A stretch of DNA of 38,346 bases from a virus: positions 1-38,346 of IMG/VR virus record IMGVR_UViG_3300025424_000022; one strand, written 5' to 3'. A program made the translations under genes and the position numbers. The notes under the pieces were generated by a model that worked only from the letters and a program-made list of their open reading frames with translations, was not told the DNA's origin and did no database searches. Of the stretch, positions 2,944-37,804 are shown piece by piece. Within the stretch, counting starts at the first letter, position 1; each line of letters begins with the position of its first letter.

Positions 2944-3171
2944 TTAACTCCACGTCAACAAAAAATCAAGTTTATCAGCTTCAGATTCAAAAATCAACTC
3001 TGTATAGGCATATCCATATCGAGCATTGTATTGTTGTGCAAGCAGTTGCACGTTATCTCCAAAAATAAATCCTTCGTTGTAACGATGATTTATGAAGTTT
3101 TTCCATATATCTACAATTTCGGTACCATCGTCTTCATACAACTTCAACTTAGGTCGATCAACGTCTGACAT
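2944..3171 (-). CDS. DKLEF-family paralog, array 1 copy 1
   Basis: 75 residues, with L-K-L-Y, D-I-W-K-N-F-I-N, Q-Q-Y-N-A-R and the C-terminal block F-E-S-E-A-D-K-L-D-F-L-L-T-W-S. It is the closest array copy to the family consensus. The start lies one base after the upstream stop, and the upstream copy's Trp-Ser codons (TGGAGT) supply GGAG five bases before the ATG. Function unknown. Confidence 0.85.
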   Translation of the reverse strand: MSDVDRPKLKLYEDDGTEIVDIWKNFINHRYNEGFIFGDNVQLLAQQYNARYGYAYTELIFESEADKLDFLLTWS

Positions 3172-3172
3172 T

Positions 3173-3418
3173 TTAACTCCACGTCAACAAAAAATCAAGT
3201 TTATCGGCTTCAGTTTCAAAAATCAAACAAGTTTCAATATCAGATTTAAAATCTGATAGTCTAGCATTATAGTAAGCAAGGAGGTATTGTTCATCTAAAA
3301 AGCTATATGCAGTACCGAAATTATAATTTATGAAATTTCTCCATATATCTACAGCCTGAATTGTATTTTTGTTAACTCGTTCATACAACTTCAATATGCG
3401 GTGATCAATGTCTGACAT
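3173..3418 (-). CDS. DKLEF-family paralog, array 1 copy 2
   Basis: 81 residues. It is very similar to copy 1 at both ends (M-S-D-x-D start, D-I-W-R-N-F-I-N, Y-Y-N-A-R, T-E-A-D-K-L-D-F-L-L-T-W-S) but has a different middle. This suggests a relatively recent duplication followed by divergence of the centre. GGAG from the previous copy's Trp-Ser codons lies five bases before the start. Confidence 0.85.
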   Translation of the reverse strand: MSDIDHRILKLYERVNKNTIQAVDIWRNFINYNFGTAYSFLDEQYLLAYYNARLSDFKSDIETCLIFETEADKLDFLLTWS

Positions 3419-3419
3419 C

Positions 3420-3635
3420 TCAACTCCATGTCAACAAAAAGTCTAGTTTGTCAGCTTCAGTTTTAAAAATCACGCGGCAACAAATGCCTCCAGTTGCATC
3501 AATCAAGTGGATATATTTCATGGAATATTGTTCAAATTTTTGTCTAGCTGACATGAAATTATTCCAAGCGGGCAATATGCGACTATCGTCATAGACTTGT
3601 AGGACCAGTTTTGTATCCACAGTAGTTAACTCCAT
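3420..3635 (-). CDS. DKLEF-family paralog, array 1 copy 3
   Basis: 71 residues from the ATG at 3635. I chose this start because ATGGAGTTAA is shared with the last codons of the upstream copy (W-S-stop), a junction also seen at 7648-7657. An ATG at 3647 is in frame but breaks the pattern. It contains P-A-W-N-N-F-M and ends F-K-T-E-A-D-K-L-D-F-L-L-T-W-S. The Y-N-A motif is not obvious. Confidence 0.8.
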   Translation of the reverse strand: MELTTVDTKLVLQVYDDSRILPAWNNFMSARQKFEQYSMKYIHLIDATGGICCRVIFKTEADKLDFLLTWS

Positions 3636-3838
3636 GCAATCAACCATTCCATTTTATGTTCTAGATCAACAAACTGCAACTGTCCGGTCTGAATATGTAT
3701 ATCTGCACCCCATTTTTCCCATAATAATTCAGCAGCGGCCCCATTGTTGGATTTGATCCAGTTATTCCATGGTGGAATTCTCGATTCGGGCCAGTGGATA
3801 GAATTATCATACAAATCAACAATCAAAGAATTATCCAT
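3626..3838 (-). CDS. DKLEF-family paralog, divergent array 1 copy 4
   Basis: 70 residues. It keeps M-D-N at the start and P-P-W-N-N-W-I, but its C-terminal block has drifted to L-E-H-K-M-E-W-L-I-A-W-S and the Y-N-A motif is lost. It overlaps the upstream copy by eight bases (TATGGATAA junction) and the downstream copy by ten. Confidence 0.8.
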   Translation of the reverse strand: MDNSLIVDLYDNSIHWPESRIPPWNNWIKSNNGAAAELLWEKWGADIHIQTGQLQFVDLEHKMEWLIAWS

Positions 3839-4058
3839 AAATCAACATGAACTCCAGTTTGTCACTTTCTGATTCAAAAATCAAACGCGTTTTTGAATTG
3901 AATGTTGTATCTGACATTCTAATATTCAATTTTTCTAAAGCAGGGCATATTTTATCATAGTGTAAAAATCCATCTCCGGTGACTGCAATGATAAAATTGT
4001 TCCACATAGGAGCTCTATCATCGACCGGATACATTAACAATGAAATTTCTTTATCCAT
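3831..4058 (-). CDS. DKLEF-family paralog, array 1 copy 5
   Basis: 75 residues, starting M-D-K-E-I-S-L-L-M-Y, nearly the same as copy 7 (M-D-K-E-I-S-L-L-I-Y). That is a sign of duplication or gene conversion between non-adjacent copies. It has M-W-N-N-F-I, L-N-I-R in place of Y-N-A-R, and F-E-S-E-S-D-K-L-E-F-M-L-I-Y-G. It overlaps both neighbours by eight bases. Confidence 0.85.
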   Translation of the reverse strand: MDKEISLLMYPVDDRAPMWNNFIIAVTGDGFLHYDKICPALEKLNIRMSDTTFNSKTRLIFESESDKLEFMLIYG

Positions 4059-4248
4059 AAGTCAAAATGAATTCCAATTTATCAGCTTCGGAATCAAATA
4101 CTATAAAACTACCTTCTAGTCGAGCATTAAAATTGTCGAGTCGGTGTGTTCTCAATTTTTCTTGATCTCGCCAATTTTTTACGTAGTGTATAATCCAATT
4201 TTCAACAATTGAAGAATCCGTCCCTAATACAATAACTGTTTTATCCAT
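4051..4248 (-). CDS. DKLEF-family paralog, array 1 copy 6
   Basis: 65 residues, with F-N-A-R-L and a good C-terminal block F-D-S-E-A-D-K-L-E-F-I-L-T-Y-G. The N-terminal half has N-W-I-I-H-Y-V in place of W-x-N-F. Eight-base overlaps with both neighbours use the shared TATGGATAA sequence. Confidence 0.85.
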   Translation of the reverse strand: MDKTVIVLGTDSSIVENWIIHYVKNWRDQEKLRTHRLDNFNARLEGSFIVFDSEADKLEFILTYG

Positions 4249-4468
4249 AAGTCAACATGAACTCCATCTTGTCAGATTGAGAATCAAAAATTATTCTCAG
4301 GGTTTGTGTGCTAATACCAGATATCTGGGCATTGAATTTTTCTCTAAGAAATACATCTTCATCGGCGATGACAAATGACCCATCCTGATCAATTATAATA
4401 TGTCTTTCCCAAGCAGGTATGAGCTTGCCATCAGCGTCATATATCAACAGTGAAATTTCTTTATCCAT
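4241..4468 (-). CDS. DKLEF-family paralog, array 1 copy 7
   Basis: 75 residues. The start M-D-K-E-I-S-L-L-I-Y is shared with copy 5. It has P-A-W-E-R, K-F-N-A-Q and F-D-S-Q-S-D-K-M-E-F-M-L-T-Y-G. Eight-base overlaps on both sides. Confidence 0.85.
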   Translation of the reverse strand: MDKEISLLIYDADGKLIPAWERHIIIDQDGSFVIADEDVFLREKFNAQISGISTQTLRIIFDSQSDKMEFMLTYG

Positions 4469-4646
4469 AAGTCAAAATAAACTCCAAGCGATCTTCAGCT
4501 GTTTCAAAAACAATGCAACTGTCTTCGTAACGATAAAATGCGTGAAATTCATCTAGTAGATGTTGACCATGATTGCCTTGACGAAATTGTTCTGTTGCCC
4601 AATTTTGAACTGTATCAGATAAGCAATGCAACTTGATATCATCCAT
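4461..4646 (-). CDS. DKLEF-family paralog, array 1 copy 8
   Basis: 61 residues, one of the shortest copies. It has N-W-A-T-E-Q-F, E-F-H-A-F in place of the Y-N-A motif, and F-E-T-A-E-D-R-L-E-F-I-L-T-Y-G. The variable middle is nearly absent, so this copy shows the minimal family core. Eight-base overlaps on both sides. Confidence 0.85.
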   Translation of the reverse strand: MDDIKLHCLSDTVQNWATEQFRQGNHGQHLLDEFHAFYRYEDSCIVFETAEDRLEFILTYG

Positions 4647-4824
4647 AAGTCAATATAAACTCCAATTTGTCGGATTGGGAATCAAATCGAATAAACCTAC
4701 TTACCAGTATCGCATTGAAGTTTGACAATGAATGTTCGGGTCCAGGCCAAGTTCTTTGATGGAGTTGTAACCATTTTAGAGCAGGGAGTGAATCACTCTC
4801 CAAATAAATGAACTGATTATCCAT
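4639..4824 (-). CDS. DKLEF-family paralog, array 1 copy 9
   Basis: 61 residues, another minimal copy, with L-K-W-L-Q, N-F-N-A-I and F-D-S-Q-S-D-K-L-E-F-I-L-T-Y-G. The upstream neighbour is the broken copy at 4817-5005, so its coupled start may receive fewer ribosomes than the others. Confidence 0.85.
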   Translation of the reverse strand: MDNQFIYLESDSLPALKWLQLHQRTWPGPEHSLSNFNAILVSRFIRFDSQSDKLEFILTYG

Positions 4825-5005
4825 AAGTCAACATGAACTCCAGTTTATCAGATATGTTTTTGAAACGAACTGCATCTAAGACTACAATCGCATTAAATTT
4901 GTTAATTGAATGGTCTGAAATATTGTCTTCAGAAGCTTTTCGCTAATATAATGTACACCAATTCTGAACTGCATTAGATTTCCAAGGCAAACGTAAATCA
5001 TCCAT
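4817..5005 (-). pseudogene. DKLEF-family paralog interrupted by an in-frame TAG
   Basis: The frame from ATG 5005 to TAA 4817 is a full-length copy (63 codons) with N-W-C-T-L-Y, K-F-N-A-I and S-D-K-L-E-F-M-L-T-Y-G, but codon 21 is TAG (4945-4943). Both junctions keep the eight-base overlap. TAG is used as a normal stop elsewhere in this window (154, 6786, 8378), so recoding is unlikely. It is probably a recent nonsense mutation, since the rest of the frame is intact. Confidence 0.8.
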
Positions 5006-5198
5006 ACGTCAAAATAAACTCCAAGCGATCTTCGGGTGTTTTAAAATATAGAGTATGTCCCAAGTTCCTCATCTGAAATTTATCCAAAGTTTCATCATAA
5101 ATATTCAAATACAACAAATAATCATCTATGGAGTTAATTGACATCCGCCAATTCCCCACCTCTTGGTGCGTCATGGGCAAAGGGTAATTTTTAGTCAT
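4998..5198 (-). CDS. DKLEF-family paralog, first gene of array 1
   Basis: 66 residues, with G-N-W-R-M-S and F-K-T-P-E-D-R-L-E-F-I-L-T-Y-G. The middle is divergent, and K-F-Q-M-R replaces the Y-N-A motif. The start ATGACTAA overlaps the stop of the unrelated upstream gene by eight bases, the same geometry as within the array. The array is therefore joined to its leading gene by the same coupling trick. Confidence 0.8.
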   Translation of the reverse strand: MTKNYPLPMTHQEVGNWRMSINSIDDYLLYLNIYDETLDKFQMRNLGHTLYFKTPEDRLEFILTYG

Positions 5199-5511
5199 TA
5201 TATTCTACACCCAAACGATTTCGCTCCCAACGGTCTTCTCGAATCCTGTCCCAATCCCAGTCGTCATCGACATGGTTCTCTAGGATGTAAACACAGGCTG
5301 CGGCTAGTTCTTCATCAGTTAATTCAATGTCAGAACAAGTGTCATCCCAGACTCTGATAATGTCAACTTCAGCAGGTTCAGCTGGCCAACATTTTTCAGG
5401 AAGACCCGATGTTTGAGCTGCTAGTCCAGGCGTGAAATGATATGAGATGTTGACTACCACATCATTTTCTGAATCTCGAACCCATTCCATGTCGTGAATT
5501 TCCATGCTCAT
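5191..5511 (-). CDS. Conserved-looking hypothetical protein leading array 1
   Basis: About 106 residues from the ATG at 5511, chosen because GGGAG lies seven bases before it and because the predicted promoter (5538-5565) would start transcription after the alternative TTG at 5535. It begins with a predicted strand region containing I-S-Y-H-F-T-P-G, then C-W-P-A-E-P-A-E-V-D-I, and has an acidic C-terminal half (D-D-D-W-D-W-D). The pattern of a beta-sheet start with C-x-P-A-E-P-x-E resembles small hypothetical proteins of other phages. Function unknown. Confidence 0.7.
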   Translation of the reverse strand: MSMEIHDMEWVRDSENDVVVNISYHFTPGLAAQTSGLPEKCWPAEPAEVDIIRVWDDTCSDIELTDEELAAACVYILENHVDDDWDWDRIREDRWERNRLGVEYND

Positions 5512-5537
5512 AAACATTCTCCCATTCATTTCCAATC

Positions 5538-5565
5538 ATTATATGATTATTTTTGAAAATCACAA
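5538..5565 (-). promoter_or_regulatory. Sigma70-like promoter for array 1
   Basis: On the minus strand TTGTGA (5565-5560) and TATAAT (5543-5538) are 16 bases apart. The sequence TCATATAAT also occurs at the promoters near 13220 and 32005. It lies in the divergent gap with folE and would start transcription about 20 bases before the ATG at 5511. Confidence 0.5.
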
Positions 5566-5612
5566 GACTGGATTATCTAAAAAATCACCGGAATAATTTT
5601 GTTTTTGAGAAA

Positions 5613-5642
5613 TTGATATTCTAAATACCAGTTGATTATAAT
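5613..5642 (+). promoter_or_regulatory. Sigma70-like promoter for folE
   Basis: TTGATA (5613-5618) and a perfect TATAAT (5637-5642) with an 18-base spacer, 23 bases before the folE start. This is a host-type promoter, which fits an early or middle gene. Confidence 0.55.
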
Positions 5643-5665
5643 TCAAACAATATAAGGAGAATAAA

Positions 5666-6352
5666 TTGAGCTACGATAAAACAAAAACAGATCCCAAGCT
5701 TGGAAAAAAAATACGTGAATACTTGATAGAACAGGGTGTTGAAACACCAGTGATATCTTCTATGCTAGAAGTTGATTCCAAAAGTAAAATTTCTAAGATT
5801 GAAGAAGCAATGACTACTGTTTATGAAACGATTGGTATGGATCTATCAAATGACAGTTTAGCCGAAACACCAAGTCGGATTGCAAAAATGCTGGTATTGG
5901 AATCATTTTATGGATTGCAGGAAGAAAATTTTCCCAAATGTACTACTGTAGAAAATGCCATGGCATATGATGAGATGGTGGTCGAAAAGGAAATAACCCT
6001 TATAAGTCAATGTGAGCATCATCAATCTGGGGTGATAGGAACTGCAACCGTGGCTTATATTCCAAAAAATAAAATCTTAGGCTTAAGCAAAATTCCACGC
6101 ATTGTTGAATATTTCAGCCGACGTCCACAAATACAAGAAAGACTCACTGCACAGATATATCATGCATTAAGTTATATTCTTGAAACTGATGCAGTAGCAG
6201 TCGTAGTTGAAGCTAAACATATGTGTGTATGTTCTCGAGGGGTGGAAGATACCAATCCCTATACAATAACGAGCAAACTTGGGCCGCCATTCAAAGCTGA
6301 TGCTGCTCTGAGAGCTGAATTTATGAGCTTAGCCTTATCAAGGAAATCCTAA
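5666..6352 (+). CDS. folE: GTP cyclohydrolase I (FolE)
   Basis: 228 residues. It converts GTP to 7,8-dihydroneopterin triphosphate, the first step of both folate and 7-deazaguanine (preQ0, queuosine) synthesis, in the cytoplasm. Family features are visible: zinc ligands C116 and H119 in Q-C-E-H-H and C187 in K-H-M-C-V-C; substrate motifs G-L-S-K-I-P-R-I-V (139-147) and R-R-P-Q-I-Q-E-R-L-T (152-161); R-G-V-E-D replaces the usual R-G-V. Length is typical. The start is TTG with AAGGAGA six to seven bases upstream. The next gene overlaps by one base (TAATG). The DpdA-like and QueD-like genes nearby favour a role in base modification over folate supply. Confidence 0.9.
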   Translation: MSYDKTKTDPKLGKKIREYLIEQGVETPVISSMLEVDSKSKISKIEEAMTTVYETIGMDLSNDSLAETPSRIAKMLVLESFYGLQEENFPKCTTVENAMAYDEMVVEKEITLISQCEHHQSGVIGTATVAYIPKNKILGLSKIPRIVEYFSRRPQIQERLTAQIYHALSYILETDAVAVVVEAKHMCVCSRGVEDTNPYTITSKLGPPFKADAALRAEFMSLALSRKS

Positions 6353-6786
6353 TGACTGCAACCCCGTTGTTAATCAATTCTGGTAATATCACTACCAACT
6401 TGAGTTTGACAACGGGTTCTTTCCATGCTGCCACTATAGCATCACCAACCTACTTAACTATTCGTGACACCGATTTTCAAGCACGCAACATACAAATCAA
6501 TAGTCCGTCTGGTGCAAAAATTTTGACGATTAGTACCGATGGAGAAGTAGAATGGTTTGGCAAACCCAGCCAAGCAGCTGATACGCTATGTTCAATTTTT
6601 ATAAATCACGTTGATGCCAAAATAGCTGAACCTGTTTATAGACAGCGTACATATGTCCGCGCAGCCAAATCAATCTTGCACCAAGTTAAATCACTGGAAT
6701 CACGGGAAGAAATAATTGATTTTTTAACTGACATTGTGGACCGACGGGAAGCTGTCGTACTGGAAAATCTGTTGAATAGAGAATAG
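6352..6786 (+). CDS. Hypothetical protein coupled to folE
   Basis: 144 residues. The N-terminal half is rich in S, T, N and G with beta-strand character (S-G-N-I-T-T-N-L-S-L-T-T-G), followed by D-G-E-V-E-W-F-G-K-P-S. The C-terminal half is helical and charged. This plan is seen in some phage structural proteins, but I do not recognise a family with certainty. The start overlaps the folE stop and uses AGGAAA in the folE end. No evident link to pterin chemistry. Confidence 0.65.
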   Translation: MTATPLLINSGNITTNLSLTTGSFHAATIASPTYLTIRDTDFQARNIQINSPSGAKILTISTDGEVEWFGKPSQAADTLCSIFINHVDAKIAEPVYRQRTYVRAAKSILHQVKSLESREEIIDFLTDIVDRREAVVLENLLNRE

Positions 6787-6798
6787 ATTTATCGAGTT

Positions 6799-6824
6799 TT
6801 AATCAACCACCTAAGGTCGATTAA
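6799..6824. terminator. Weak hairpin in a convergent gap
   Basis: TTAATC (6799-6804) pairs with GATTAA (6819-6824), with ACC/GGT pairing inside. It lies between the convergent genes ending at 6786 and 6847. The stem is AT-rich and has no clear T-run, so it is only a possible terminator. Confidence 0.25.
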
Positions 6825-6846
6825 GATCTACAATTAACAGTTGAAG

Positions 6847-7077
6847 TCAAGAATAAGTCAGAATGAATTCCAATTTGTCTTCTTTGGAATCAAAAATTAT
6901 GAACCAAGCAGGGTAATTGAAAAACAATAGTTCAGCATTGAACGTTTCTTTCAATATTTTATGTTCTTTTTCAGAAACTACGATGTTGCAAAAACCATTC
7001 ACTGACCGAAAATTTGCATATAAAATTGACAAAGACCAACGATCAGTACCTGCAATATTTAGCGTTGGTTTATCCAT
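6847..7077 (-). CDS. DKLEF-family paralog, last copy of array 2
   Basis: 76 residues, with Y-A-N-F in place of W-x-N-F, E-T-F-N-A-E and F-D-S-K-E-D-K-L-E-F-I-L-T-Y-S. The start lies three bases after the upstream stop, as expected after an F-G copy. It ends in Ser with a TCT codon, so it carries no start signal for a further copy, which fits its position at the end of the array. Confidence 0.85.
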   Translation of the reverse strand: MDKPTLNIAGTDRWSLSILYANFRSVNGFCNIVVSEKEHKILKETFNAELLFFNYPAWFIIFDSKEDKLEFILTYS

Positions 7078-7080
7078 GAA

Positions 7081-7326
7081 TTATCCAAATTCCATGATGA
7101 ATTCCAGTTTATCAGATTCATTTTCAAAAGCTATATACCACTCACCCGAGTCAATATCTTTTTTCATAAACGCATTATATTTTTCTTTCAGAAATTGGTT
7201 TTCATTTTCTATTTTGATATATGATAGATGTTCAAAATAATTTTCATAAATTTGAGTGGTTTGAGGATACATCGAATTCCCACTTCTCTCAGTTATTAGC
7301 ACTTTATAGGTCATCTTTTTATCCAT
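7081..7326 (-). CDS. DKLEF-family paralog, array 2
   Basis: 81 residues, with Y-E-N-Y-F, E-K-Y-N-A-F and F-E-N-E-S-D-K-L-E-F-I-M-E-F-G. The last residues differ (M-E-F-G instead of L-T-Y-G). The start overlaps the upstream copy by eight bases. Confidence 0.85.
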   Translation of the reverse strand: MDKKMTYKVLITERSGNSMYPQTTQIYENYFEHLSYIKIENENQFLKEKYNAFMKKDIDSGEWYIAFENESDKLEFIMEFG

Positions 7327-7657
7327 AAGTCAACAAGAATTCCAATTTATCTGCTTCAGTTTCAAATAAAATGAAAGCCCAGTTTCCACCAGTTTTGAAT
7401 AATTCAACTTCAGAAGGTTTACAAGATCGATCTATAAATTTGGCACTGTATAGATAGGCATTCCAGTGATTAATTAATTCTCTTTCTATTCTGCGAAGAT
7501 ATTCTGGCTGTGCATTCGATTGTGAGAGCTGGCCGCTAGCACATTCTTTTTGTATTTGTTCGAGTATAGGTTTAATGAAACGATGATAATGATTAGAGTC
7601 AACTACTAGGTTGATGTATACATCGTTTTCGATATCGAGATATTTTTTCAACTCCAT
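7319..7657 (-). CDS. DKLEF-family paralog with a long central insert
   Basis: 112 residues, the longest copy. The insert lies between H-W-N-A-Y and the C-terminal block F-E-T-E-A-D-K-L-E-F-L-L-T-Y-G, so length change is confined to the variable part. The start ATGGAGTTGA is shared with the last codons of the upstream W-S copy (ten-base overlap). Confidence 0.85.
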   Translation of the reverse strand: MELKKYLDIENDVYINLVVDSNHYHRFIKPILEQIQKECASGQLSQSNAQPEYLRRIERELINHWNAYLYSAKFIDRSCKPSEVELFKTGGNWAFILFETEADKLEFLLTYG

Positions 7658-7878
7658 GTCAACAAGAACTCCAACTTATCAACTTCAGTTTCAAAAACTA
7701 GAAAATAAGTCTGGTCATCCACACACAATCTAGCATTATACATCTTTCTCAAAATATTAAGACTCTGATCAAAACTTTCAAAACTTCCTGTCCTGCCAGG
7801 AGATGTGTCAAGGAATTTTTTGAAATGCCGACGCCAAAAACCATTATCATCTGATACTTGCAATTCCAAATTTGACAT
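7648..7878 (-). CDS. DKLEF-family paralog, array 2
   Basis: 76 residues, with F-W-R-R-H-F-K-K-F-L, K-M-Y-N-A-R and F-E-T-E-V-D-K-L-E-F-L-L-T-W-S. It starts three bases after the stop of an upstream F-G copy and hands over to the next copy through ATGGAG. Confidence 0.85.
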   Translation of the reverse strand: MSNLELQVSDDNGFWRRHFKKFLDTSPGRTGSFESFDQSLNILRKMYNARLCVDDQTYFLVFETEVDKLEFLLTWS

Positions 7879-7881
7879 AAG

Positions 7882-8112
7882 TTATCCGAATACCAATTGA
7901 AATTCCAATTTGTCAGCTTCAGATTCAAATTCAATTGATATTGAAAACATGTTTTCTATCCTAGCATTATATTGTTTCAAAAACAAGTTATATGTTTCAC
8001 AAATATCTTCACCTGGTTGATAGGGGCTTTCTTCTCGAACCGCCATTACAAATCTTGTCCAGGTTCTTGACCAATTGACGCCTTCTATTCTTCGCAACTT
8101 TATTTTATCCAT
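7882..8112 (-). CDS. DKLEF-family paralog, array 2
   Basis: 76 residues, with S-R-T-W-T-R-F-V, K-Q-Y-N-A-R and F-E-S-E-A-D-K-L-E-F-Q-L-V-F-G. Because the penultimate codon is Phe rather than Tyr, no overlapping ATG is possible and the next copy starts three bases later. The eight-base overlap with its own upstream copy is intact. Confidence 0.85.
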   Translation of the reverse strand: MDKIKLRRIEGVNWSRTWTRFVMAVREESPYQPGEDICETYNLFLKQYNARIENMFSISIEFESEADKLEFQLVFG

Positions 8113-8371
8113 ATGTCAACATGAACTCTAACCTGGCTTGTTCAGTTTCAAAAACAAAATATGTTTCCCACCGACTATAATATGCAGACCATTCATGTTG
8201 CAACCAATTGTGAAAAGGATTCATTAATGTATTATACCTCTGATATTTCAAAATGTTGTTCATCATTGGGGCAACTGATTTTTGATAATCAGCATAGACT
8301 TTGTCAAAAATTCTAGATTTGGTATCCTGTATAAAACGGGTTTTATATCTAGATCTCATCAACTTGGCCAT
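8105..8371 (-). CDS. DKLEF-family paralog with a basic N-terminus
   Basis: 88 residues from the ATG at 8371. It is unusual for a basic N-terminal stretch (M-A-K-L-M-R-S-R-Y-K-T-R). It keeps H-E-W-S-A-Y and F-E-T-E-Q-A-R-L-E-F-M-L-T-Y-G, in which the normally invariant Asp is replaced by Ala. I chose 8371 because it lies four bases after the upstream stop, as at other copies that follow an F-G ending. A TTG at 8383 overlapping that stop is the alternative. Confidence 0.8.
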   Translation of the reverse strand: MAKLMRSRYKTRFIQDTKSRIFDKVYADYQKSVAPMMNNILKYQRYNTLMNPFHNWLQHEWSAYYSRWETYFVFETEQARLEFMLTYG

Positions 8372-8375
8372 GTGC

Positions 8376-8588
8376 CTACCCAAACGTCAAAATAAACATT
8401 ATTTTATCTTCTGGTGTGTCAAATGTCAAGTTGATTAAACGTGTCCGGTAATTAATCCGTTGTGTAGTTACACCATATGTGTCTTTCAGCCATAATTTAT
8501 AATCAACATATTCACTCTGGTGCCAGCACCACTCCAGATTTCTTTGTGTAGGCGAGTCTAGCTCGAATAAATAACTTATTTCATCCAT
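8376..8588 (-). CDS. DKLEF-family paralog, divergent copy in array 2
   Basis: 70 residues, with L-E-W-C-W-H and F-D-T-P-E-D-K-I-M-F-I-L-T-F-G. The D-K-L-E-F core has become D-K-I-M-F and the Y-N-A motif is gone. It uses GGG TAG at its end where most copies have GGA TAA. Confidence 0.8.
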   Translation of the reverse strand: MDEISYLFELDSPTQRNLEWCWHQSEYVDYKLWLKDTYGVTTQRINYRTRLINLTFDTPEDKIMFILTFG

Positions 8589-8808
8589 AGATTAACTGGA
8601 ACTCCAATTTGTCTTCCTGTGTTTTGAATCTTATATAGTGCGCATGCTCAATTAATAACCAATCAGCTGAATATTCTTTCCGAAGCCAATACCTATATTC
8701 TGAAAACCACATTGCTCTACTTTCCCGAAAGCTATGAGTATAATAATATGTTTCGATCCACTCACCTTCTTGATTTTTATATATTATGATCAAACAACAA
8801 TCATCCAT
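8581..8808 (-). CDS. DKLEF-family paralog, array 2
   Basis: 75 residues, with an aromatic-rich middle (E-T-Y-Y-Y-T-H), E-Y-S-A-D and F-K-T-Q-E-D-K-L-E-F-Q-L-I-Y-G. Its upstream neighbour is the broken copy at 8801-9028. The eight-base overlap is kept at both ends. H-A-H-Y-I also occurs in that broken copy, a hint of sequence exchange. Confidence 0.85.
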   Translation of the reverse strand: MDDCCLIIIYKNQEGEWIETYYYTHSFRESRAMWFSEYRYWLRKEYSADWLLIEHAHYIRFKTQEDKLEFQLIYG

Positions 8809-9028
8809 AAGTCAAAATAAACTCCAGTTTGTCGGCTTCAGAATCAAATATGATGTAATGTGCATGTTTATCCAAATGACCATTGAAATATTTCAGCTGA
8901 GCATTTACCTCGGTAAAAGTTGGGTATTTATTTTCTTTCCACCAATCATTATGAAAAGCTGCAAATATTTTGGAAAATCACATTGCGGTACCTCCTTCCC
9001 AAATAGAGAGTCGAATTACATCATCCAT
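8801..9028 (-). pseudogene. DKLEF-family paralog interrupted by an in-frame TGA
   Basis: ATG 9028 to the shared end at 8801 reads as a canonical 75-residue copy with V-N-A-Q-L and F-D-S-E-A-D-K-L-E-F-I-L-T-Y-G, but codon 17 is TGA (8980-8978). It stands where the family has the Trp of W-x-N-F (here A-M-stop-F-S-K-I-F), so a single TGG to TGA change explains it. TGA ends many genes in this window, so reading it as Trp is unlikely. A strong AAGGAGGT lies just before this stop. Confidence 0.8.
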
Positions 9029-9242
9029 AGGTCAACATGAACTCCAACTTGTCAGCTTCAGTTTCAAATACAACATAAGTACGACAATTTGATATCCTAG
9101 CATTATAATGTGAAAGAGGATATTTTGTTTTATTATAATTGATCCATAATTTGGAGAATGGTAGAACCCATTTTTTTCTAATATCATCCCAGTCACTTTC
9201 ACTGTAGAGTGATATTTTATATGTATCAGTTGCATCATCCAT
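9021..9242 (-). CDS. DKLEF-family paralog, array 2
   Basis: 73 residues, with S-H-Y-N-A-R-I and a consensus C-terminal block F-E-T-E-A-D-K-L-E-F-M-L-T-Y-G. The W-x-N-F region reads F-S-K-L-W-I-N-Y. Eight-base overlaps with both neighbours, both of which are broken copies. Confidence 0.85.
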   Translation of the reverse strand: MDDATDTYKISLYSESDWDDIRKKWVLPFSKLWINYNKTKYPLSHYNARISNCRTYVVFETEADKLEFMLTYG

Positions 9243-9475
9243 AAGTCAACATGAACTCCAGTTTGTCTTCAACGTTTTCAAATTCAATAAGCCAATTGAA
9301 TTTTTTTTGCGCCGATTTTTTTCAAAGACAGTATCACCAATGGATAATCTGGATATTTAAAATATTCAGCATAATTTAATTCCCTCTGAAAAACTGAATC
9401 CAAATAATTCTGCCAGATTGGGGTTGGTTTCACTGGGTCTTCAAAGGTATATATTTGAATTGAGTTAGGTCCCAT
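9235..9475 (-). pseudogene. DKLEF-family paralog with a frameshift in an A run
   Basis: The frame from ATG 9475 (with P-I-W-Q-N-Y-L-D-S) runs to a premature TGA at 9284. The family C-terminal block (I-E-F-E-N-V-E-D-K-L-E-F-M-L-T-Y-G) continues in another frame to 9235. The switch falls at runs of eight (9301-9308) and seven (9316-9322) T on the plus strand; removing one A from either run restores the frame. It is a pseudogene, a slippage site, or a homopolymer sequencing error. Confidence 0.75.
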
Positions 9476-9484
9476 GGTGGATTC

Positions 9485-9760
9485 TCACGAATAGGTTAAG
9501 AGAAATTCTAGCCGATCTTCTTCAGAGTCAAAAACCAGTCCATATGGTTGAAAACTTCTATTTCCCAAGGTATCATCCAAAAAAGCGTTATATTTAGACA
9601 AAGCCCGATTGAGAATTTCGAATTTGCAATCAGATGGTTTGATTACGTGGATTTGAAAAATAGACACAACAAATTTTTCCCAATATGCATGCCATTTCCA
9701 CCCGGCGTCTAAACTTAGATAATCAATCGGTAGCGTAATTTTCATTGTATTTTGTTTCAT
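9485..9760 (-). CDS. DKLEF-family paralog, array 2
   Basis: 91 residues, with H-A-Y-W-E-K-F-V, S-K-Y-N-A-F-L and F-D-S-E-E-D-R-L-E-F-L-L-T-Y-S. The start lies three bases after the stop of an upstream F-G copy. It ends in TCG TGA and so cannot provide an overlapping ATG; the next copy begins nine bases later. Confidence 0.85.
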   Translation of the reverse strand: MKQNTMKITLPIDYLSLDAGWKWHAYWEKFVVSIFQIHVIKPSDCKFEILNRALSKYNAFLDDTLGNRSFQPYGLVFDSEEDRLEFLLTYS

Positions 9761-9763
9761 ATG

Positions 9764-10090
9764 TTATCCAAAAGTCAATAGGAATTCCAACTTATCTTCT
9801 GGTGTTTCAAAAAGCAAGTACTTGAATGTATGGTAATGTATCGTTGCGTGCCATTCAACTTCTAAAACATCAGCTTCAAGAAGATTATGTACACCTTCAT
9901 TCTTGCGCAACCGATTCTTTTCTCTAAAATATTTTATAAAATTTTGATATGCGGGAATCGGATTCCCGTATACGGGAATCCATTGAAATTCACTACCAGA
10001 TCTATAAAGTACCTGTAGACAACACTCTGGATCATAACCATCTGGTAATTGATGTATACCAAATGGTTTTTCAAGTTTTGTCATGACCAT
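9764..10090 (-). CDS. DKLEF-family paralog with a long N-terminus
   Basis: 108 residues. About 30 extra residues precede the usual pattern; then come P-A-Y-Q-N-F-I-K, V-E-W-H-A-T and F-E-T-P-E-D-K-L-E-F-L-L-T-F-G. ATG GTC ATG gives two possible starts. The first lies four bases after the upstream stop, as expected after an F-G copy. Confidence 0.85.
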   Translation of the reverse strand: MVMTKLEKPFGIHQLPDGYDPECCLQVLYRSGSEFQWIPVYGNPIPAYQNFIKYFREKNRLRKNEGVHNLLEADVLEVEWHATIHYHTFKYLLFETPEDKLEFLLTFG

Positions 10091-10094
10091 TGAA

Positions 10095-10355
10095 TCATCC
10101 GAATGTCAAAAAGAATTCAAATTTGTCTATGACTGTTTCAAAACTAATCTTGCCAGGCGAAACCAACGTTGCATTATGATATTTTCGCCAATATGCATCT
10201 GGGTTTATATTTTGGTGAAGACCCATTATAGCAACTAACGGGAATAATTCATTATCTATTCTAGCATCATAATTTTCTGAAAAATGATTGATGATATTTT
10301 TTGCCATACTGGGAGAAAAATCTCTCATGTATAACTTTTCATTATTTTCATTCAT
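10095..10355 (-). CDS. DKLEF-family paralog, first copy of array 2
   Basis: 86 residues, divergent, with E-N-Y-D-A-R-I near the middle, Y-W-R-K-Y-H-N-A and F-E-T-V-I-D-K-F-E-F-F-L-T-F-G. The order is altered: a Y-x-A-R-like motif comes before W-R-K-Y. The start overlaps the end of the DpdA-like gene by eight bases, so the array is translationally coupled to the modification gene. Confidence 0.8.
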   Translation of the reverse strand: MNENNEKLYMRDFSPSMAKNIINHFSENYDARIDNELFPLVAIMGLHQNINPDAYWRKYHNATLVSPGKISFETVIDKFEFFLTFG

Positions 10356-11985
10356 AAAAAATATCTTCTATGTTCTTCACTGTCGTACTTTCCATGTCCC
10401 GACCTCCCAAACTCTGCAACAATTTTTCATGTTTTGCAATCAAATCCATGGGACATTCACTTGTAAAAATGTCGGGACACAAGTCTTTGAATTCCAACAA
10501 GTCAGAAGTTAACAATTGACTTGCTTGTTCAATTGGTAGATCCTGTGCTTCAGTAGCGGCGCGCATGGAATTGATATGAAGTTCCAGATTGTGGTTCATG
10601 ATCAACAAATAGCTAAATCCATCCAAACTACTAGGCCATTTGGTTTGATATTTTTTAGTGGGATCAGAAAAATCCACAGTACCCCAATCAAACAATCCAC
10701 CCTGTTCAGGATGATGAGTAATATATTCCTTGTAGGCCTGGGTCCATTTGAATTGGTCATTGACTCGTGCTTCTGGACTGTTTTTATAATGATCAGTTGC
10801 TTGTTCTTTTTTGGACCAAGGAATCAATTTGTATTCCAAATCTTCATATCCACGAACACAAATATCACCCAAATTGATCCTGCTGCCAATTGTACTGGGT
10901 TTGAAATTAGCTGTTCTATCCTGCAACCAATCATTCAATAACATGGGATTGTTTTTCAATTCCTTGGCATCAGGCATATTGTCCAATGTAAACCCATTTC
11001 TTTCATGAGTTAAAAACCAACCATAATAGGCTTTGCCCATGGCAGTAGACACGAATGGACTTGATGCATCGAAACTGACAGTCAAATCGGGATCAACATA
11101 TTTTCTCAGACTTCTTTGTATAGTGGTCAAATAACAAGCTGTTTTAATTTTACCAATGCCCAGATAGTGGATCCATTCACGTCCCTGCAAATAACCAGTA
11201 TCACGCATTCTAATCAATCGTCTTAGACTGATAGCATTGTTCATTACTTGTGCACCACCTAGAGCCCAACCTTCAAAAGGCAAGTCTTTGACTGCTTCCC
11301 ACCAAATGTCATTCTCTTCTTGATTGCGTCCCTGTAGTACGTTTAGGAACTTGGTCTTACCCGGCGTTCTGTGCTTGGCAAAAAACTTGTGATTTTCCAA
11401 ACTGCCATTCAAACAATCTGCAAATGTTTTAAGTCCTGGATGCAAACATTCACCTGTTACTGGATCCACCCCATATCGCAGCATACTGTGTGTTGGCCAG
11501 TCAAGTAACATGCTATAATCAGCAGTTGCTTCCAACCACTTTAATATTTTGAGTTTGAACCCGTCTTGGTCTGATTTTAAATCTTCTAATGTTTGGTTGG
11601 GTTTGGGTTGCCAGGGATATTTTAATACACCGTTAGCTGCTTGGAATCCTCCTGAGTCACCAATAATCACGGTGCTGTCTCTGTCACGTTGTTGAACCAT
11701 GGCTTCAACTGACCAACTGGATTCAGGATTCAAATCAGCATGTCCTGCTGAATAGAGCGCGGCGGGATAATAGAATAGATTGTTGGCAGGATCTAGGAAA
11801 TCCAGCTCCTTCAATCCATTTGTCAAGCCTTTGGGAAGTTCAGTCCTTTGACTATAAGTTTCCATGCTGACAATTTTTGCATAGATTGAGCTAATGCTGG
11901 GCAAGAACAAAGCTGCATCTTCAATGTTCTTGCTCAAGTCTTTGGCATTGGGATTTACTGTAATATCAGGATTGGCTTTAAACAT
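10348..11985 (-). CDS. DpdA-like TGT-family transglycosylase
   Basis: 545 residues. TGT-family enzymes exchange guanine for a 7-deazaguanine; in phages the DpdA branch does this in DNA. Visible motifs: G-D-S-G-G-F-Q (109-115; TGT active-site Asp), L-L-D-W-P (160-164), L-Q-G-R (217-220), G-W-A-L-G-G-A (239-245, substrate loop), Y-L-G-I-G-K (274-279) and S-F-D-A-S-S-P (304-310), where D306 would be the nucleophile. The C-x-C-x2-C zinc motif of tRNA TGT is not visible. The protein is longer than tRNA TGTs. Together this favours DpdA over a queuosine tRNA enzyme. The start overlaps the glycosyltransferase stop (TGATG) and array 2 follows directly. An archaeosine-type RNA role is not excluded. Confidence 0.75.
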   Translation of the reverse strand: MFKANPDITVNPNAKDLSKNIEDAALFLPSISSIYAKIVSMETYSQRTELPKGLTNGLKELDFLDPANNLFYYPAALYSAGHADLNPESSWSVEAMVQQRDRDSTVIIGDSGGFQAANGVLKYPWQPKPNQTLEDLKSDQDGFKLKILKWLEATADYSMLLDWPTHSMLRYGVDPVTGECLHPGLKTFADCLNGSLENHKFFAKHRTPGKTKFLNVLQGRNQEENDIWWEAVKDLPFEGWALGGAQVMNNAISLRRLIRMRDTGYLQGREWIHYLGIGKIKTACYLTTIQRSLRKYVDPDLTVSFDASSPFVSTAMGKAYYGWFLTHERNGFTLDNMPDAKELKNNPMLLNDWLQDRTANFKPSTIGSRINLGDICVRGYEDLEYKLIPWSKKEQATDHYKNSPEARVNDQFKWTQAYKEYITHHPEQGGLFDWGTVDFSDPTKKYQTKWPSSLDGFSYLLIMNHNLELHINSMRAATEAQDLPIEQASQLLTSDLLEFKDLCPDIFTSECPMDLIAKHEKLLQSLGGRDMESTTVKNIEDIFYE

Positions 11986-13193
11986 CAGTATTTGTTTTCC
12001 AAGAGTCGGGTTCTATAATTGTTGTTTGATCGGTTCCAAGTTTCTCCAGCACCAGTCAAAATATCTATGATGCGATCAATAGTCCCATCTGTCCAATCAC
12101 TGATTTTTCCCACGTTTTGATGTGGTTCAACCAACAGTTTTTCCAGCTTTTGAATAGCATCTGGAATTGACCAGGGGATATACATGCGATCAGGATCATT
12201 TGCGAATATTTCCGGAAATGATCTATATGCGGGAAACAGAACATTTGTTCCCAGAGCATCTGCTTCACTTACGGTATTGGAAGTCCAATCTTGACTTGCA
12301 GAATTAAATAGGACTCTGGAATCTGCTAGAAGTTCGTAATATTGATCTTTTTTCAAATCTTCATATATGACCAGCTTGCCAGCTTCTTGTAGTTGTCTTG
12401 TTCTAGTCATATAGCTGCTATCATTTGATCGGAGCTTTGATCCAATGAATAGGGCGAATTCAACTGGTTCATTGGGGAAAATAGTATCTGCTGCTTTAAA
12501 AGCGGTGATTGGATAAGCTTCATACCAAGCTTCAATCAAATCCATATAGAAATTGGGATTTTTTTCTCGATCCCAACGACTTGCAAAACAAACTCGGTTT
12601 TTACGTTGGCTGAATTCAGGAATGTTTTTGACTCTGGATTGAACTTCCGCTTTACCAAATGCCAGTCCGGAAATATTATAAATTGGTGCTTTCCATCCTG
12701 CTATCCGCATATGAGCAACCATTTCTTCATTTGATGCTAGGACAATATCAGCAAATTCATTTACCATGCGTTCATAAGTCGCCATCCACTGTTCCATTTT
12801 CCAAACATGAACAAAGTCATCAGGATCAATTGATTGTGCTAAACAACGAACTGCTACTCGAGGTCGATAGTCGGGATCTATTTGATCAAATATATAGGGC
12901 AAGCTTTCAATACCTGGTGTAAACATGTCTTCAAAATAAACGACGTCGTCTTTGGTGAAAACACCTTGTTTCAGCTGTTTTACAAGATTGGCCATTTGGG
13001 TTAGTGAAAAGAACGAACGTCCATGCGCATCCAGTACCTGTCCTGTTACTATGGATTTGGAATCATCTAGAGTCTCACCATCAATTAGAATATATTCAAT
13101 ACCGCGTTTTTTAAAGACAGTCTCATTCCAGTCTTGAAGTTGTAGAGTATATCTACCTTCATATTTTTCCAGTCCACAGTAACCAATTTTCAT
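11985..13193 (-). CDS. GT4-like glycosyltransferase
   Basis: 402 residues, GT-B fold type. It should transfer a sugar from a nucleotide-sugar donor. The second domain has the usual GT4 marks: F-A-S-R-W-D-R-E-K-N-P (about 205-215), then Y-Y-E-L-L-A-D-S-R-V-L-F-N-S-A-S, and a donor-site E-A-D-A-L-G-T-N-V-L-F-P. The start ATG has TAGGAG before it. The one-base overlap with the DpdA-like gene suggests both act on the same product. I infer glycosylation of a modified base. Glycosylation of a virion or host surface component is the alternative. The acceptor cannot be read from the sequence. Confidence 0.75.
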   Translation of the reverse strand: MKIGYCGLEKYEGRYTLQLQDWNETVFKKRGIEYILIDGETLDDSKSIVTGQVLDAHGRSFFSLTQMANLVKQLKQGVFTKDDVVYFEDMFTPGIESLPYIFDQIDPDYRPRVAVRCLAQSIDPDDFVHVWKMEQWMATYERMVNEFADIVLASNEEMVAHMRIAGWKAPIYNISGLAFGKAEVQSRVKNIPEFSQRKNRVCFASRWDREKNPNFYMDLIEAWYEAYPITAFKAADTIFPNEPVEFALFIGSKLRSNDSSYMTRTRQLQEAGKLVIYEDLKKDQYYELLADSRVLFNSASQDWTSNTVSEADALGTNVLFPAYRSFPEIFANDPDRMYIPWSIPDAIQKLEKLLVEPHQNVGKISDWTDGTIDRIIDILTGAGETWNRSNNNYRTRLLENKY

Positions 13194-13216
13194 TTGATGC
13201 TCCTATATTATGATCA

Positions 13217-13245
13217 ATTATATGAAAAATTGGATCTGTATTCAA
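13217..13245 (-). promoter_or_regulatory. Sigma70-like promoter for the glycosyltransferase operon
   Basis: Minus strand TTGAAT (13245-13240), 17-base spacer, perfect TATAAT (13222-13217) in the context TCATATAAT, 23 bases before the ATG. It would drive the glycosyltransferase, the DpdA-like gene and array 2 as one unit. Confidence 0.55.
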
Positions 13246-13252
13246 TAATTGT

Positions 13253-13555
13253 CTAGGACCAAGTCAGTAGAAATTCCAATTTGTCTGCTTCAGAATCAAA
13301 TGTCAAATATACGTCTGATATGAGACAAACATCAGATGGGACAGAACCATTAAACCCAGCATTGAATTTTGCGTTGTATTCTTCTGCTAGGATAGATGCA
13401 ACAAAATCTGGAAATGTTTCATGTTCCGCAAATTGGAGTGAATATTGAATCTTACAGCAGTATCTCAAAAAATTCTGATAGTGGATCATATGTCGACCAT
13501 CAATAAGATCACTGACAAGCAAGACGTTGTCCATATTTTTATTCATCAGGACCAT
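13253..13555 (-). CDS. DKLEF-family paralog, isolated copy upstream of array 2
   Basis: 100 residues, with H-Y-Q-N-F-L, E-E-Y-N-A-K-F and F-D-S-E-A-D-K-L-E-F-L-L-T-W-S. It is separated from array 2 by the glycosyltransferase and DpdA-like genes. The ATG at 13555 (ATGGTCCTGA) overlaps the end of a decayed copy by ten bases, the same junction as at 3626 and 7648. M-D-N further in is a later possible start. Confidence 0.85.
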   Translation of the reverse strand: MVLMNKNMDNVLLVSDLIDGRHMIHYQNFLRYCCKIQYSLQFAEHETFPDFVASILAEEYNAKFNAGFNGSVPSDVCLISDVYLTFDSEADKLEFLLTWS

Positions 13556-13590
13556 TCAATCAAAAACGTAAGTTTGTCAAATTCTGTTTC
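13546..13590 (-). pseudogene. Remnant: C-terminus of a decayed DKLEF-family copy
   Basis: In one minus-strand frame the codons from 13590 to the TGA at 13548-13546 read E-T-E-F-D-K-L-T-F-L-I-E-W-S, the family C-terminal block. The frame is closed just upstream by a TGA, and the stop of the QueD-like gene (TAG 13592-13590) touches its edge. Only the tail of the copy survives, and it still supplies the ATG for the next copy. Confidence 0.7.
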
Positions 13591-13949
13591 TATTCAGGAA
13601 TATATTCCACTATACCGTCTGATTCACCGTCTTCTGAAACTACTACTTCATAGTATCGATCAGTACCATAGCTGGGAATCAAGTGATTGTCTAAAATATC
13701 AGTCGCAATCATTTCACATGATTTGTGATTTTGATTACCGCCCTGGATAAATTCTTCTAATGCCCATTTGACCAGAAAAAATTCTAATTCCCGGTCCAGT
13801 GAGTTAACAGTTATCTTGACTCCAATCTTGAACATATGGCGGTGTTCATTTTCTAAGAATTGGATACGTGGATCAATCAAACCTGCGCCGGGATAGAAAT
13901 GAAACCCTTCAAATTGTGTCCTAATTTTGATATAAGTCTTTTGAGTCAC
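13590..13949 (-). CDS. QueD/PTPS-like T-fold protein
   Basis: 119 residues. In QueD the fold turns dihydroneopterin triphosphate, the FolE product, into 6-carboxytetrahydropterin for preQ0 synthesis. Features in family order: F-E-G-F-H-F near the N-terminus (His of the first metal motif), E-H-R-H-M-F-K-I (compare H-G-H-N-Y), R-E-L-E-F-F (compare V-D-F), S-C-E-M-I-A (compare T-x-E-N-x-A), and V-V-V-S-E-D-G-E-S near the end (compare V-x-V-x-E-T). The usual catalytic Cys before H-x-H is not evident, so activity may differ. The start is a GTG overlapping the upstream stop as GTGA. Assignment is by pattern only. FolE and DpdA-like genes in the same window support it. Confidence 0.5.
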   Translation of the reverse strand: MTQKTYIKIRTQFEGFHFYPGAGLIDPRIQFLENEHRHMFKIGVKITVNSLDRELEFFLVKWALEEFIQGGNQNHKSCEMIATDILDNHLIPSYGTDRYYEVVVSEDGESDGIVEYIPE

Positions 13950-14146
13950 GATTTGTTTCCTTCTGGATCAGTTATATCGTGTGGTGATTTTTTTAAAAGT
14001 TCAGCAAATTTATCAGCAGCAATTTGTATTTCTTTCAAAAGATCAATACCATTAGCTTCTGACTTATCCACCAAATCTTGTGTGTATTCAAAAGTTAATT
14101 TATTGTCATCTCCAATATCAAATTCACTTTTAATTTCATTAGTCAT
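13946..14146 (-). CDS. Small hypothetical protein, paralog of the 14285 gene
   Basis: 66 residues from ATG 14146, which has AAGGAAC upstream and overlaps the previous small gene by eight bases. M-T-N-E-I and the following F-x-Y-T pattern (L-T-F-E-Y-T-Q-D-L-V) match the gene at 14285-14518 (M-T-N-K-I, V-I-N-Y-T-F-T-K-E-V). The two look like an old duplicated pair. The C-terminal half is helical and charged. Function unknown. Confidence 0.65.
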   Translation of the reverse strand: MTNEIKSEFDIGDDNKLTFEYTQDLVDKSEANGIDLLKEIQIAADKFAELLKKSPHDITDPEGNKS

Positions 14147-22558: not shown

Positions 22559-23166
22559 CAACTATTTATGAATAGTTGACTCAGTGCCAGCTTAGCATCC
22601 AACAATTGCTGTATGTCTGCTGAATAGGAACCATACAATTCCACAATGAATGCGCGTCTTTCAAAATCATCCAATGTGGGATAAATTTCTCGAATTTGAC
22701 TTGCACTTGTAATTGTCTGCCCGAATAGCTCAAATTCCACCGTGGGTACAATTATTGAATAGGCTGTTTGATCCATGGTGAGACATTTTGACAATTTAGT
22801 AAATGGTCGTATGCTTTTGGCTCCCGCAAATCTGTCTGAGTCTTTGGCACCAATTGCAAAAATTAATTTTGTTGTAGTTGGATCAACCAAATCCAAAATT
22901 TCAGTGGGTTTGTATGGACTTCGAGTTTGAATAATTCGATCTTCAGGTATTCCAATAAATTTTGCTAGTTCAAGTTTTTCTTCAAATGTAAATGGACTGT
23001 TGGGTAATTTAACAATATTGCTGGTAGCCAAATAAACTTGATCTCCAAAGTTGGCTTGTAAGTATCTAAATACGGCAGCATGCCCTTTGTGGATAGGTTG
23101 GAAACGTCCACCATAAATGACTAACACGTTTTTTCGAGTGGACTCAAATAAATCTTGAAGTTTCAT
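22558..23166 (-). CDS. Nucleotidyltransferase with N-terminal capsid-targeting-like tag
   Basis: 202 residues of the cytidylyltransferase/NMN adenylyltransferase superfamily. Motifs: Y-G-G-R-F-Q-P-I-H-K-G-H (18-29, with the H-x-G-H core) and S-A-S-Q-I-R-E (compare S-S-T-x-I-R). It transfers a nucleotide to a phosphorylated substrate; the substrate is not evident, with NMN one option. The first nine residues (M-K-L-Q-D-L-F-E-S) match the tag of the next four genes upstream and precede the enzyme domain. By analogy with T4 internal proteins, the tag may direct it into the head and be cut after L-F-E. ATGA overlap with the upstream gene. Confidence 0.8.
   Translation of the reverse strand: MKLQDLFESTRKNVLVIYGGRFQPIHKGHAAVFRYLQANFGDQVYLATSNIVKLPNSPFTFEEKLELAKFIGIPEDRIIQTRSPYKPTEILDLVDPTTTKLIFAIGAKDSDRFAGAKSIRPFTKLSKCLTMDQTAYSIIVPTVEFELFGQTITSASQIREIYPTLDDFERRAFIVELYGSYSADIQQLLDAKLALSQLFINS
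22563..22570 (-). promoter_or_regulatory. Late-promoter-like CATAAATA at a gene start
   Basis: CATAAATA on the minus strand, four bases before the ATG at 22558. It lies in the end of the nucleotidyltransferase coding sequence, so chance is possible, but the same spacing recurs at 26654, 27309 and 27980. Confidence 0.4.
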
Positions 23167-26654: not shown

Positions 26655-26658
26655 CTCT

Positions 26659-26666
26659 TATTTATC
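26659..26666 (-). promoter_or_regulatory. Late-promoter-like GATAAATA at a gene start
   Basis: GATAAATA on the minus strand ending four bases before the ATG at 26654, in the short gap between two tagged genes. Same spacing as at 22558, 27309 and 27980. Confidence 0.4.
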
Positions 26667-36157: not shown

Positions 36158-36185
36158 AAAATAGCTGCTTCGGCAGCTATTTTTT
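36158..36185 (+). terminator. Intrinsic terminator after the tail sheath gene
   Basis: ATAGCTGC and GCAGCTAT form an 8-bp stem closed by a TTCG tetraloop, extended by A-T pairs and followed by TTTTTT. A strong plus-strand terminator. The minus-strand homing endonuclease gene ends inside it: its TAG is 36179-36177. Confidence 0.9.
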
Positions 36186-37769: not shown

Positions 37770-37774
37770 CAACA

Positions 37775-37804
37775 ATTATAATCACTGTTCAAGAAAAATA
37801 TCAA
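37775..37804 (-). promoter_or_regulatory. Sigma70-like promoter of the homing endonuclease
   Basis: Minus strand TTGATA (37804-37799), 18-base spacer, TATAAT (37780-37775), then five bases to the ATG at 37769. No ribosome-binding site is visible, so the mRNA may be leaderless. Confidence 0.5.

Follow-up and report, generated by a model that had tools for sequence, protein, structure and literature searches.

Tandem arrays of small proteins with a conserved C-terminal tail in a jumbo phage fragment: a possible repertoire for phage conflicts

INTRODUCTION

What use might a phage have for 27 divergent copies of one small gene? The question is raised by IMG/VR virus record IMGVR_UViG_3300025424_000022, analyzed here over its entire 38,346 bases (the window), in which two arrays of such genes lie between positions 2944 and 10355. 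Jumbo phages devote kilobases to small genes annotated as "hypothetical," and we find that many of these can now be joined in one class, to which the window family probably belongs. One rule runs through this class in several phages, one of which is complete, isolated, and carries about 50 members: a fixed C-terminal part (the tail) is combined with exchangeable N-terminal parts (the heads). Our favored, still tentative, explanation is that the arrays form a lineage-specific repertoire of small adaptor or inhibitor proteins, most likely used in conflict.

RESULTS

From a listing of open reading frames (ORFs), a motif scan, and a profile search over the window, we count 27 copies of the family: 11 in array 1 (2944-5198), 14 in array 2 (6847-10355), one at 13253-13555, and one at 166-432. 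An initial reading made from the DNA letters alone (the sequence-only reading) had arrived at the same count. The profile search accounts for 26 of the 27 places, and 3626-3838 was added on the basis of its position and a weak C-terminal motif. The strict C-terminal motif has four matches in the window, with 0.00 expected from shuffles.

The family signature, FESEADKLEFxLT[YW][GS], lies at the C terminus, and the alignment contains no conserved cysteines. Mean pairwise identity is 48% in the final 22 alignment columns and 18% in the columns before the Y-N-A block. Hence, the proposal that both ends are conserved around a variable center holds for the C-terminal end but not for the N-terminal one; likewise, of the motifs taken to be common to the copies, W-x-N-F and Y-N-A are found in only part of them. 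At the DNA level, identity is 48 to 68% over the 3'-terminal 60 nucleotides (nt) and 26 to 31% over the next 90 nt, which is the random level (27.5%); this comparison was ungapped and loses register at insertions and deletions, so the boundary, which falls some 60 nt before the 3' end, looks sharper than it may be. We rejected the idea that the C-terminal conservation is a mere DNA start signal for the next gene, because the copies at 6847, 13253, and 166 keep the motif without a following member.

Searches for a known family gave only subthreshold, chance-level matches in Pfam, PHROG, PADLOC, and NCBIfam and none among PDB sequences, in agreement with the earlier statement that no named family with this expansion was known. 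A tblastn search with 20 concatenated copies against 50,697 phage records returned nothing at an E value of 10 or below. A first DNA-pattern scan across viral contigs found no match, a looser one found three near-identical low-complexity matches (DKFEFIFTFFYTNFFIF) that we judged to be due to chance, and of 92 pattern matches from a scan with the A1 profile, not one was confirmed.

A profile of the window copies did give weak matches in related phage contigs, and inspection of the ORFs at those places led to a class of proteins of 55 to 150 residues with the C-terminal pattern hxFxxxxDAxxFKLxW[SG], which we call the FKLxW class. In its strict form, the pattern is matched by 113 of the 9,042 ORFs of the loci examined, 23 of them in the window, and by none after shuffling. 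We regard membership of the window family in this class as probable because four lines of evidence converge. Profile-profile comparison (hhalign) gives a probability of 92% and an E value of 6e-7 over 20 C-terminal columns; the class profile matches five window copies (E values of 3e-4 to 0.011); AlphaFold2 models built from independent alignments both end in alpha-beta-beta-alpha; and these models have two BFVD neighbors in common, A0A6J5KTI1 and A0A6J5LHB1. In the window model (helix 43-50, strands 52-54 and 64-67, helix 70-80; predicted local distance difference test score [pLDDT], 73), the predicted C-terminal domain comprises about 40 residues, and the class model is similar (helix 17-34, strands 41-45 and 49-54, helix 57-67; pLDDT, 79). 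The expectation of a common fold among the copies is thus borne out for the predicted C-terminal part. In BFVD, the 28 top-ranked matches of the class model are without exception uncharacterized small proteins of uncultured Caudovirales phages. Fold matches in the PDB were set aside as background for both models: the window model comes nearest in shape to RRM domains (best Z score, 4.0; root mean square deviation, 3.9; 61 residues) and the class model to unrelated alpha/beta proteins (best Z score, 6.2), with RRM domains mostly not listed for the latter.

At an E value of 0.01 or below, the class occupies 50 places in Sinorhizobium phage Phosso (50 to 52 over the separate counts), three in Pseudomonas phage PA5oct, and three in Agrobacterium phage Atu_ph07, and none in T4, RaK2, CBB, BF, XaC1, Cr30, S-BM3, P-SSM2, or Vibrio phage 2.275. 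In Phosso and PA5oct, the genes are annotated as "hypothetical," and clusters of them lie at Phosso 6673-9451 and 12938-14020. Nine contigs (G034, G017, G018, G033, G016, and G036 to G039) hold 7 to 18 copies each, with 18 in G034 and 9 to 16 in each of G036 to G039, and the genes frequently form overlapping arrays upstream of polB. The class domain ends exactly at the C terminus in 64 of 141 members and within a few residues of it in most others. Contrary to the initial view that the family is limited to this phage, it would be one branch of a class that has expanded independently in several T4-related jumbo phages. Over the final 20 residues, the window copies are 47% identical among themselves and 14 to 20% identical to other class members (ungapped), a pattern that points either to a separate expansion or to concerted evolution. 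Judged from the libraries searched, the class is apparently undescribed so far; no description was found in a literature search that left subscription journals mostly outside its scope. As a further observation, the array region of locus L078 holds another small paralogous family (L078:2442-2684, 6859-7083, and 7280-7480; MNER...FAEL[VI]V..C...HFGV).

In the relatives, some heads could be recognized. Of 90 class members scanned against Pfam and PHROG, two matched Gp23-type major capsid protein (MCP): Phosso 113923-114303 in Pfam (E value, 9e-6) and, with the PHROG major head protein at 7e-7, a member from G034. A DnaB-like P-loop was detected in one member (E value, 0.002). When the Pfam Gp23 model was searched over 39 records, complete capsid genes also matched, and class members matched it in the profile segments 2-31 (G034), 305-354 (Phosso 113923-114303), and 136-222 (G014:385-729), with a marginal match at 161-198 in a G029 member. 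A profile of 13 capsid proteins gave E values of 4e-8 for G034, 5e-8 for Phosso, 1e-5 for G014, and 0.014 for G029, and the best value over ten shuffled sets was 0.12. By sequence comparison, then, three distinct Gp23 segments are fused to the class tail. The proposal that all heads of the "IDxEI..GWT" type are capsid derived was kept as marginal only (hhalign probability, 17 to 34%). When class heads were compared with the other ORFs of the loci examined, no protein besides capsid protein matched repeatedly.

The G034 gene has orthologues with the capsid head in G036 (79%) and G039 (46%), the latter scoring 30.6 bits against the Pfam Gp23 cutoff of 24.4. In G037 and G038, a different head is joined to this tail. 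Between G034 and G037, head identity is 16%, with a nonsynonymous divergence (dN) of 0.98, and tail identity is 89%, with a dN of 0.05, a difference that we read as replacement of a module. The notion of modules with a constant end and a variable part is therefore met in related phages, as a constant C-terminal tail and exchangeable N-terminal heads. The Phosso capsid head is 33% identical to the phage's own MCP and 30 to 37% identical to others, and it does not appear to be a recent copy of the phage's own gene. The G034 capsid head is closest to the MCPs of S-BM3, P-SSM2, and Cr30 (45 to 49%), followed by jumbo phage MCPs (27 to 42%), in a comparison from which its own MCP was absent. It aligns to residues 77 to 118 of T4 Gp23 and thereby overlaps the Gol region, which we take to span residues 93 to 122 or so.

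Several further frames of this kind were noted. At locus L170, Phosso 182280-182546 lies in a frame of 228 residues outside the class that has another segment of capsid protein at its beginning (Gp23 profile 9-62; E value, 5e-10, above the cutoff), and G014:7133-7303 (L169) is a frame of 65 residues resembling a free-standing capsid-protein fragment (Gp23 130-185; E value, 2.6e-5). The class members L078:1689-2093 and L153:937-1341 have P-loop sequences in their heads (SASRNTGKST and GGRGHGKST, respectively), and the latter also has a capsid-like stretch at its start.

Orthologous pairs across contigs have dN values of 0.05 to 0.20 and synonymous divergences (dS) of 0.7 to 1.8 where these could be estimated. 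Since dN is far below dS, the class orthologues are under purifying selection and hence are functional proteins. For the capsid head shared by G034 and G036, dN is 0.16 and dS is 0.48. The sole close tandem pair in the window, which is 57% identical, has a dN of 0.34 and a dS of 0.57. Diversity thus lies between paralogues and orthologues are preserved, and the description of the family as rapidly diversifying applies to the former but not to the latter.

The genes are closely packed within the arrays. Fourteen of the 23 junctions show an 8-nt overlap, mostly ATGGATRA, in which the end of the upstream gene (Y-G-stop) is also the start (M-D) of the next; two have a longer overlap, and seven have gaps of 1 to 9 nt. 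In the same way, the end of the TGT-like gene upstream shares 8 nt with the first gene of array 2. Because the same stop/start overlap recurs at so many junctions, the array genes are probably translationally coupled.

Array 1 lies on the minus strand and consists of copies at 2944-3171, 3173-3418, 3420-3647, 3626-3838, 3831-4058, 4051-4248, 4241-4468, 4461-4646, 4639-4824, 4817-5005, and 4998-5198. Each is an ORF with a profile match, apart from 3626-3838, which has a divergent C terminus (LQFVDLEHKMEWLIAWS) and no profile match, and 4817-5005, which was detected by the profile and is broken by an in-frame TAG. Array 2, on the same strand, comprises 6847-7077, 7081-7326, 7319-7657 (long; 112 residues), 7648-7878, 7882-8112, 8105-8383 (with a TTG start inside the overlap), 8376-8588 (matched by the wider-class profile at 3.1e-4), 8581-8808, 8801-9028, 9021-9242, 9235-9475, 9485-9760, 9764-10090 (long; 108 residues), and 10095-10355, the first copy of the array and the one overlapped by the TGT-like gene. 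All are again ORFs with profile matches, apart from two broken copies detected by the profile: 8801-9028, with an in-frame TGA after 16 codons, and 9235-9475, with a frameshift beside A7 and A8 runs that could be an assembly error instead of real decay. In total, 24 of the 27 copies are intact and three are broken, rather than the single remnant reported at first.

The two remaining copies are ORFs with profile matches. The copy at 166-432 (E value, 2.3e-16) lies at the left contig end on the plus strand, opposite to the arrays. The copy at 13253-13555 is on the minus strand; it had been called isolated, but it heads the same minus-strand gene run, followed by a glycosyltransferase-like gene, the TGT-like gene, and array 2. 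Similarly, 2944-10355 does contain the two arrays but is not an unbroken family stretch, as an ORF unrelated to the family (5191-5535), folE (5666-6352, plus strand), and an orphan ORF (6352-6786, plus strand) intervene. The gene folE is also near class-like genes at L094:1465-1722 (G032) and PA5oct 165381-165596, possibly by chance.

The window DNA polymerase best matches those of Phosso (48%) and Atu_ph07 (46%), with Vibrio phage 2.275 and PA5oct next (both 42%), and the window also encodes a tail sheath, DNA polymerase B (PolB) in two ORFs, and a GTP cyclohydrolase. On the basis of these polymerase affinities and this gene content, the window is part of a jumbo phage genome of the T4-related group. 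No relative at the nucleotide level was present among the annotated phages searched.

Other features of the window are mentioned briefly. The region 10348-13193 (minus strand) encodes a TGT/DpdA-like protein, so labeled by motif reading, and the glycosyltransferase-like protein. The former has no match in Pfam, PHROG, or the PDB, and no close relatives of its gene were found in viral contigs. Its homologues in PA5oct and Vibrio phage 2.275 are close to 7-deazaguanine genes, and the window phage may therefore modify its DNA with 7-deazaguanine derivatives. PolB is encoded by two overlapping ORFs (16711-20162, minus strand), the second of which, by reading, has an apparent intein-like insertion within the YGDTDS motif (GDSVTGDTVIRT...VHNTDS); PHROG polymerase families match around it. 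Another multicopy family, of four neighboring genes with NPxAIxxI..PSPxxQxxA-type repeats, is found at 23163-27309 (minus strand), and the two of its genes that were scanned belong to phrog_5925/17056, PHROGs without an assigned function. An HNH homing endonuclease is encoded at 36177-37775 (minus strand; PHROG E value, 1.5e-49). Late promoters (TATAAATA) are not above chance in the window (2 versus 3.3 expected).

DISCUSSION

By analogy with known systems, a class of proteins with fixed tails and exchangeable heads suggests a toolkit that serves in conflict, either with hosts or with rival phages. The coupled genes of an array would be expressed jointly and yield a set of soluble proteins; in these, the tail may provide scaffolding or docking common to all, and each head may bind or mimic a different target. 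The conserved 60-nt 3' gene end could offer homology for unequal recombination, and we propose that new heads are gained and copies decay by this route. The proteins might then act as decoys or inhibitors against host defense sensors or against competing phages and satellites. We favor a role in conflict because of three precedents. Bacteria sense capsid protein directly, as a trigger of CapRel and as the Gol peptide of T4 Gp23 that activates Lit (PMC9712102); T4 amplifies tifA, a counterdefense (antitoxin) gene of about 85 codons, in tandem (PMC9391042); and blocking of virion assembly is a known antiviral strategy, exemplified by Tab (PMC10884400).

The capsid pieces in some relatives appear to be the first, and the only, clue to targets. 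They are compatible with decoys for capsid sensors, with agents that sabotage rival capsids, or with proteins that play an accessory part at the capsid; when we searched the literature for dominant negatives made of capsid-protein fragments, nothing relevant came up. A more specific version of the conflict hypothesis, which we hold to be rather unlikely, is a decoy kit: capsid-derived and other heads would occupy CapRel- or Lit-like sensors or poison the assembly of rival phages or satellites, and the window would hold a version with 27 members, whose heads are by now too divergent to be recognized and are renewed by 3'-end recombination. If heads do act as decoys or assembly poisons, the class would be a modular viral system for counterdefense or competition.

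Several observations weigh against the conflict repertoire as an explanation of the window arrays. The window copies themselves lack a Gp23 match or any other recognizable protein fragment, and only three clear capsid heads, or five at most, occur among about 140 class members. The window family is tied to the class mainly through about 20 C-terminal residues, as far as sequence comparison goes. Finally, the window phage is a fragment without a close relative (the top polymerase match among viral contigs is 52%), which precludes a comparison of copy number with close relatives.

Capsid-like heads might also bring to mind accessory or injected proteins of the phage head, comparable to the T4 internal proteins, in which the capsid-like part coassembles, leaving the variable parts to modify the shell or to act once injected. 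This would account for capsid-protein segments serving as heads in relatives, and T4-type phages are reported to inject variable small antirestriction proteins (PMC12373910). We consider it rather unlikely here on several counts. The capsid-like part is not found in the window copies, and, more weakly, the PA5oct members EST35_0247, 0274, and 0275 lack the electrospray ionization tandem mass spectrometry (ESI-MS/MS) tag that is common on PA5oct genes. Furthermore, the capsid-targeting sequence of the T4 internal proteins is N-terminal and cleaved, whereas the window family keeps its C-terminal part constant and has an N-terminal part of only 18% identity.

Recombination at the 3' ends could also operate without adaptive value, yielding short chimeric genes that are mostly functionless and are tolerated in roomy jumbo phage heads. 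The chimeric appearance of the heads and the breakage of 3 of the 27 copies would agree with such birth and death, as would the frequency of tandem amplification by microhomology in T4 (PMC9391042). Yet the other 24 frames are intact, dN is far below dS in orthologues across contigs, including the G034/G036 capsid head, and the recognizable fragments are mainly from capsid protein and not from random genes; we thus think this explanation distinctly unlikely. Less probable still are small nucleic acid-binding regulators with an RRM/ferredoxin-like fold, each copy recognizing a different RNA or DNA. They are brought to mind by the RRM domains nearest to the window model and by the expansion to about 35 copies of a zinc ribbon, possibly DNA binding, in phage G (PMC7824862). 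However, a Z score of 4 is background, the class model points to unrelated alpha/beta proteins, and we identified no RNP-like surface of conserved basic or aromatic residues in the alignment.

How, then, would a conflict repertoire of this kind compare with known systems? The T4 internal proteins IPI to IPIII resemble the window family in having one constant end, a variable body, and small genes in a row, and they have a role against host restriction; their constant end, however, is N-terminal and cleaved, and that of the window family is C-terminal. TifA (gp61.4), Dmd, and related antitoxins of T4 are also small counterdefense proteins, and tifA amplifies in tandem by recombination (PMC9391042), but its amplification produces identical copies, in contrast to the divergent ones of the window. 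A search of T4 with the FKLxW profile gave nothing at an E value of 0.01 or below that would relate the class to TifA or Dmd, and a remote kinship is possible. The zinc ribbon of Bacillus phage G is likewise a small jumbo phage protein whose expansion is lineage specific (PMC7824862), although, unlike it, the window family has no conserved cysteines. The FKLxW class offers the closest parallel. The window family differs from it in its own signature and in a tail that is shorter and lacks the W-C helix motif, and from a subset of it in that recognizable capsid heads were not found. In common with the class, it has the beta-alpha motif at the extreme C terminus, the predicted alpha-beta-beta-alpha core, tandem overlapping genes, a high copy number, and variable heads.

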